Origin: Thermoplasmata archaeon
GTDB taxonomy: Archaea; Thermoplasmatota; Thermoplasmata; Lutacidiplasmatales; UBA184
DNA length: 64,000 bases
Reading direction: 5' to 3'
Assembly: GCA_022749815.1 (NCBI GenBank)
Contig: JAKIWV010000003.1
Coordinates: forward strand, 284,048 to 348,047
Part shown: positions 57,031 to 57,419 of the stretch, piece by piece
How positions within the stretch are numbered: position 1 is the stretch's first letter
Layout: each line of letters opens with the position of its first letter
Made by a program: the position numbers and the translations under genes
Notes under the pieces: model-generated
Databases searched by the model: none
Seen by the model: only the letters and a program-made list of their open reading frames with translations
What the model was told of the DNA's origin: nothing

Positions 57031-57057
57031 AATGGGCTCCGTCCCTCGCTCGCCTGT

Positions 57058-57164
57058 AGCCCCGTAGTGTAGTGGCCAATCATGCGAGACTCTGGATCTC
57101 GCGACGCAGGTTCGAATGCCGGGAGCCCCTACCGGCTCCCCGGCCGAGATTCCTGCCGGGGCTA
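57058..57164 (+). tRNA. tRNA-Gln (anticodon CTG) with a T-loop intron
   Basis: The mature tRNA is 73 nt: acceptor AGCCCCG/CGGGGCT, D-stem GTG/CAT, anticodon stem CGAGA/TCTCG with loop CTCTGGA (anticodon CTG), a 4-nt variable loop, T-stem GCAGG/CCTGC, discriminator A. The T-loop is interrupted after TTCGAA by a 34-nt intron; removing it restores TTCGAAT. The anticodon loop has no intron. No CCA is encoded. Confidence 0.93.
57117..57150 (+). other. tRNA-Gln intron in the T-loop
   Basis: The junction folds as a bulge-helix-bulge. T-stem 57106-57110 pairs with 57152-57156; the central helix TTCG (57111-57114) pairs with CGAG (57145-57148); 3-nt bulges AAT (57115-57117) and ATT (57149-57151) hold the cut sites. 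The intron helix starting GCCGGG (57118) pairs with the stretch ending at 57144. Cuts after the second bulge base give this 34-nt intron and an intact T-loop. Confidence 0.88.
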
Positions 57165-57221
57165 CCTCTCTTCAACCCGTCGTGACTGCGTCACGGTGCG
57201 GGGGTGCTCCAGCTCGGCCAA

Positions 57222-57248
57222 ACTTCCGGCGAGGCCGGTAAGGGCTTC
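57222..57248 (+). other. tRNA-Leu intron 1 in the D-loop
   Basis: The exon helix CTC (57213-57215) pairs with GAG (57250-57252). The central helix GGCC (57216-57219) pairs with GGCT (57243-57246). Bulges are AAA (57220-57222) and TCC (57247-57249); the intron helix CTT-CCGG (57223-57229) pairs with 57235-57242. This is a complete bulge-helix-bulge; cutting after the second base of each bulge frees a 27-nt intron. Confidence 0.82.
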
Positions 57249-57296
57249 CGAGGCAGGGCTTAGAACCCTGTTGCCTAGGGCATTCGCCGGTTCAAA

Positions 57297-57328
57297 GGGG
57301 ACCCGGCCTTTCGCCGGGTCCCGGGAAC
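57297..57328 (+). other. tRNA-Leu intron 2 in the T-loop
   Basis: The T-stem is 57286-57290/57330-57334. The central helix TTCA (57291-57294) pairs with GGGA (57323-57326) at three of four positions. Bulges are AAG (57295-57297) and ACT (57327-57329), and a perfect 10-bp intron hairpin spans 57298-57322. Cutting after the second bulge base gives a 32-nt intron and restores the loop TTCAAAT. Confidence 0.82.
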
Positions 57329-57419
57329 TCCGGCCCCCCGCACTCCTCCCTCGCTTGCAGGAGGCATCGCCCTGACGAACCGACCCGAACCTCCCATCTC
57401 TCCCGAGGCGATCGAACGC

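Follow-up and report, generated by a model that had tools for sequence, protein, structure and literature searches.

In Thermoproteales, tRNA introns bounded by bulge-helix-bulge (BHB) motifs are found in the D- and T-loops (including positions 20/21 and 59/60), with many per genome and two or more per gene (PMC4090602, PMC8450103), and the splicing endonuclease is of the (alpha-beta)2 type with a CSL. Outside Crenarchaeota, non-canonical tRNA introns have been reported from Asgard archaea, where the uncultured wetland and soil Atabeyarchaeia and Freyarchaeia have numerous interrupted tRNA genes, the interruptions frequently lying at non-canonical sites (PMC11291895). ARMAN, also with diversified tRNA introns, have an epsilon2 endonuclease (EndA) of three units with an ASL (PMC12397907). 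Reviews state that alpha4 and alpha2 enzymes cleave the canonical BHB only (PMC4033280, PMC6379350), and Korarchaeum cryptofilum, whose alpha2-type enzyme is reported to carry a specific loop, is said to be the only alpha2 archaeon having non-canonical introns (PMC4033280). Homodimers have nevertheless been reported to cut BHL-like motifs as well, and EndA of Ferroplasma acidarmanus, a Thermoplasmata homodimer, to cut a minimal BHB (PMC8707768); the available part of that source is concerned with biochemistry only and does not discuss natural T-loop introns of Thermoplasmata. A literature search that covered few subscription papers returned no report of non-canonical tRNA introns in Thermoplasmata.

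Here we describe a doubly interrupted tRNA-Leu(UAG) gene in the window, i.e., the whole 64-kb stretch of DNA that was analyzed. The genome is a Thermoplasmatota MAG that appears close to Lutacidiplasmatales. This order assignment is inferred from EndA similarity, as the EndA relatives were Thermoplasmata MAGs including SubAcS, AcS, and UBA184, which have been assigned to Lutacidiplasmatales (PMC9287336). As in Thermoproteales, D- and T-loop BHB introns are numerous in this genome and can occur twice in one gene; in contrast to that group, the enzyme is of the alpha'2 type without CSL, the T-loop site dominates, and the motifs are mostly near-strict. K. cryptofilum likewise combines an alpha2-type enzyme with non-canonical introns, but no specific loop was seen here. 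Atabeyarchaeia and Freyarchaeia belong to another phylum and have 92 to 95% of their genes interrupted, versus ∼48% here, and unlike the three-unit ARMAN protein, the present EndA has two domains with the catalytic unit at the C terminus. The kind of intron is known; the setting is new as far as we could find.

Structure of the tRNA-Leu(UAG) gene

The gene starts with GCGGGGG and finishes with CCCCCGC-A (Table 1). Excision of both introns left an 86-nt tRNA-Leu(UAG) that was called by ARAGORN and formed a full class II cloverleaf with all stems paired, anticodon UAG, and a long variable arm. The same program found no tRNA in the unspliced sequence or after removal of intron 1 alone, and made a spurious call after removal of intron 2 alone. 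The earlier note had proposed this architecture, with a full 4-bp central helix and 3-nt bulges at intron 1, three of four central pairs and a 10-bp hairpin at intron 2, and an intron-free anticodon loop; all of these elements were recovered, at exactly its coordinates. A splice-aware finder run over both strands of the window returned at threshold only a known tRNA-Thr, the tRNA-Gln, and the tRNA-Leu.

Table 1. Features of the tRNA-Gln(CTG) and tRNA-Leu(TAG) genes, in window coordinates
Feature	Position	Strand	Remarks
tRNA-Gln(CTG), 33 nt upstream of the Leu gene	57058-57164	+	ARAGORN mis-bounds it at 57056-57130
tRNA-Gln(CTG) T-loop (59/60) intron, 34 nt, central helix TTCG/CGAG 4/4	57117-57150	+	
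tRNA-Leu(TAG) precursor gene, three exons; 57342 is discriminator A73	57198-57342	+	ARAGORN on spliced sequence; orthologues
Exon 1, nt 1-21	57198-57221	+	Natural intron-1-less allele L143
Intron-1 central helix, 5' strand GGCC, pairing GGCT at 57243-57246	57216-57219	+	
Intron 1, 27 nt, D-arm position 21/22 (after A21)	57222-57248	+	BHB 4/4 in 24/25 orthologues; absent in L143, L153, L154
Exon 2, nt 22-59	57249-57296	+	Orthologue comparison
Anticodon TAG, loop CTTAGAA uninterrupted	57261-57263	+	
Intron-2 central helix, 5' strand T54 T55 C56 A57, pairing GGGA at 57323-57326; A57 x G mismatched	57291-57294	+	
Intron 2, 32 nt, T-loop position 59/60	57297-57328	+	BHB 3/4 and 10-bp hairpin, covariation; absent in L150-L155
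Intron-2 internal hairpin, 10 bp	57298-57322	+	
Exon 3, nt 60-73	57329-57342	+	Orthologue comparison

The intron-1 central helix (GGCC/GGCT) had 4/4 pairs, one of them G-U, with bulges AA-A and TC-C, and the complete helix seen in nearly all unique orthologue introns arose in only 3% of shuffles. Folding of the Leu precursor beat shuffles (z −2.97); in the minimum free energy structure of the lone strand, a CUCGG/CCGAG D-arm pairing was favored over this central helix by ∼3.5 kcal/mol. At intron 2, the TTCA/GGGA helix had 3/4 pairs, and because of its A x G mismatch the motif is slightly relaxed and not fully canonical. The internal hairpin reached a covariation score of 0.338, versus 0.140 ± 0.019 when shuffled and 0.05 to 0.17 when slid. 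Alternative registers (58/59, or a GTTC/GAAC helix) gave a poorer fit to orthologues and empty sites, and sliding the T-loop register by one lowered the mean number of central pairs from 3.53 to 2.83.

Across 21 genomes the Leu(TAG) exons were 98% identical, versus 60 and 68% for the two introns (shuffled, 56 and 61%). Together with the finder result and the hairpin covariation, this argues that the two-intron structure is not a chance arrangement. It also bears on the idea that the locus is a decayed tRNA-Leu(TAG) with insertions whose decoding has passed to another gene. A genome 93% complete leaves room for such a gene, but no second Leu(TAG) was found in it, a check that the earlier note had raised, and the exons are conserved and the BHB kept while the introns drift. 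We regard a pseudogene as hardly credible; judged from its sequence, the gene is almost certainly functional.

Among 28 parsed Leu(TAG) genes, both introns were present in 21, the D-arm intron alone in 4 (L150-L152 and L155; genera g7 and g2), the T-loop intron alone in 1 (L143 of G019), and neither in 2 (L153-L154; g4). The locus with both introns is conserved in genera g1, g5, and g6. In L143, CTCGGCCAA is joined to CGAG, exactly the predicted intron-1 junction, and the g4 genes read TTCAAATCCGGC, which is the predicted T junction; these natural empty sites support the Leu exon boundaries. Since the other parsed g5 relatives carry the D intron, L143 looks like a precise loss of intron 1.

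Insertions kept in the mature molecule would destroy the contacts between D-loop and T-loop. A tRNA functioning with enlarged D- and T-arms might be suggested by the stability of the hairpins (mean z of about −2.5 over 85 T-loop introns), but the BHB bulges and central-helix pairs, which are relevant only to cleavage, are conserved, and the insertions are precisely present or absent between genomes. Retention is accordingly very improbable.

tRNA introns across the genome and in related lineages

Every RF00005 hit of the genome was parsed, and Trp and His were searched for in addition, which gave 46 tRNA genes (42 parsed, Ala-CGC and Glu-TTC read by eye, and Trp and His); as genes were located by search and in targeted stretches, a multi-intron gene could still escape this count. 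About 24 introns were present in 22 of the 46 genes: 14 in the T-loop (Ala-GGC, Asp, Glu-CTC, Gly-TCC, His, Lys-TTT, Leu-TAG, Asn, Gln-CTG, Arg-TCG, Arg-TCT, Ser-CGA, Ser-GCT, and Ser-GGA), 5 in the D-loop (Lys-TTT, Leu-TAG, an initiator-like Met, Pro-TGG, and Arg-GCG, with registers set by hand for Arg-GCG [17/17a] and Pro-TGG [17a/18]), and 5 at 37/38 (Met, Tyr, Leu-TAA, Glu-TTC, and Trp). Gly-CCC was an intact 72-nt match, and Pro-GGG was not found in this survey. T-loop introns interrupt about a third of the tRNA genes of this lineage. The earlier note had called the Leu introns unusual for a Thermoplasmata-like genome. This holds against the published picture, but the survey rules out an isolated curiosity, as ∼19 of the 24 introns lie at D- or T-loop sites. 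From one tRNA to another, the intron bodies resembled each other no more than shuffled sequences did (best score 9, against a mean maximum of 10.9), and recent transposition between tRNAs of this genome is therefore unsupported. In the neighboring tRNA-Gln(CTG), ARAGORN places the 3' end inside the intron, closing on intron sequence; the Gln-Leu pair is kept in several genera among the relatives searched.

The T-loop introns follow a common logic, in which the BHB central helix takes one of its strands from the near-invariant TTC(A/G). Of 98 different T-loop introns, 97 had at least three of four central pairs (21% of shuffles), 68% contained an inner helix of 3 bp or more (6% when shuffled), and C56 paired with G in 97. 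Base 57 covaried with its partner: G57 met C in 43 of 46 cases and A57 in 0 of 52 (Fisher, 1e-24, a value that overstates the number of independent events because the intron sequences are related). A57 instead opposed G in 40 of 52 introns, as at 57294 versus 57323, and U in 11. Since the same A x G opposition is also seen in 37/38 introns of these genomes, we read it as tolerated beside the 5' bulge and not as a broken site. Its recurrence suggests a tolerated or preferred non-Watson-Crick pair at this position. Because T54-T55-C56-R57 is common to tRNAs, one intron 3' end suits nearly every tRNA.

Weak or long RF00005 hits from nine additional genomes were parsed with splicing allowed, which revealed T-loop introns in families f1 (three genera beyond the genome's own), f2, f3, f18, and f11. 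D-loop introns occurred in f1, f2, f3, f5, f18, and f11, and the one f8 genome checked had 37/38 introns only. The combination of D- and T-loop introns in Lys-TTT was shared by this genome, f2, f3, f18, and two of the three further f1 genera looked at. This pair therefore probably predates the order, and the Leu pair is younger.

Several other loci surfaced in these genomes. In the f3 genome G038, T-loop introns (L225, L229, L230, L231, and L234) were merely 13 to 15 nt long, with a TTCA/TGAA-type helix and no inner helix (BHL-like), and several of these genes also held an anticodon-loop or D-loop intron. In the f2 genome G039, position 37 of a tRNA-Gln(TTG) (L207) was followed by an apparent intron of 190 nt made of repeated short palindromes (TTACCGTAAGGG...); L213, L214, L215, and L219 are possibly alike, and comparable repeats were present at further tRNA-like loci of G039. 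One weak tRNA match, L216 (G039:C13:21388-21839), was a CRISPR-like array with repeat GTCAAAACCCGATGAAAAGGGGACTGGAAC.

Splicing endonuclease and ligase

The earlier note had held that such introns need a broad-specificity endonuclease and had proposed classifying the enzyme. The genome encodes one PF01974 protein, a single two-domain ORF of 355 aa, and a second EndA was not found in the PF01974 search. Sequence and a structure model (pLDDT 73, moderate confidence) assign it to the alpha'2 type, with two fused units, the catalytic Tyr-His-Lys in the C-terminal one, and a predicted dimer. Among PDB structures, the Methanopyrus kandleri fusion (5x89) and alpha'2 chains of A. fulgidus matched best, and ARMAN epsilon2 (4fz2) was a weaker match. 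Relative to A. fulgidus EndA, in its natural form and with the CSL grafted in, the EndA of all aligned lineages lacked an insertion at the CSL site (HMMER alignments supplied the A. fulgidus and M. jannaschii sequences). The protein has neither the (alpha-beta)2 arrangement with Crenarchaea-specific loop nor the three units, central catalytic unit, and ASL of ARMAN epsilon2, the ASL being compared only via the analogous CSL position. A CSL-type or second EndA, looked for with PF01974 and at the CSL site, was not found, and because the only EndA is of the alpha'2 type without CSL, the need for a broad-specificity endonuclease is not supported. An RtcB gene is present.

The introns could be real and yet be removed by a second endonuclease, or by an EndA with another specificity loop, Crenarchaeota- or ARMAN-like. 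The A57 x G introns and the short f3 introns without inner helix do look relaxed, but by PF01974 almost every one of 61 genomes has one two-domain ORF (the pair of hits recurs in nearly all 59 matching relatives), and the aligned lineages all lack an insertion at the CSL site. We consider this explanation unlikely. The reports on homodimers and on Ferroplasma EndA fit an alpha'2 enzyme together with the D- and T-loop introns seen here.

Implications for tRNA splicing in Thermoplasmatota

In our assessment the locus is very probably a functional, single-copy tRNA-Leu(UAG) gene with BHB introns at 21/22 and 59/60. The one alpha'2 EndA of the genome would cleave the precursor at both motifs, reading the motif and not its position, and RtcB would ligate the exons. 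The T-loop would lend itself to such introns because its TTC(A/G), which hardly varies among tRNAs, can form the central-helix strand on the exon side, so that a hairpin ending in (C/G)GAA-NN before T60 may be removable from almost any tRNA. With less confidence, though still on balance, we favor the broader view that Thermoplasmatota spread tRNA introns to the D- and T-loops without altering EndA, the invariant T-loop sequence serving as an all-purpose site for BHB introns, one that an ordinary alpha'2 enzyme can cut anywhere, with family f3 extending this to 13-nt T-loop introns without inner helix; the accepted rule that non-canonical introns evolve together with CSL/ASL loops would then not be general.

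The notable point is that D- and T-loop introns are abundant, their BHB motifs being near-strict for the most part, alongside an alpha'2 enzyme without the loop held to allow such introns. Automated tRNA calling leaves large gaps in these widespread soil archaea: the Leu gene was missed and the Gln gene mis-bounded by ARAGORN, and neither was recovered by Rfam at its gathering score. These archaea add another lineage rich in non-canonical tRNA introns, with a "narrow" endonuclease type, which makes the rule of endonuclease-intron co-evolution directly testable.
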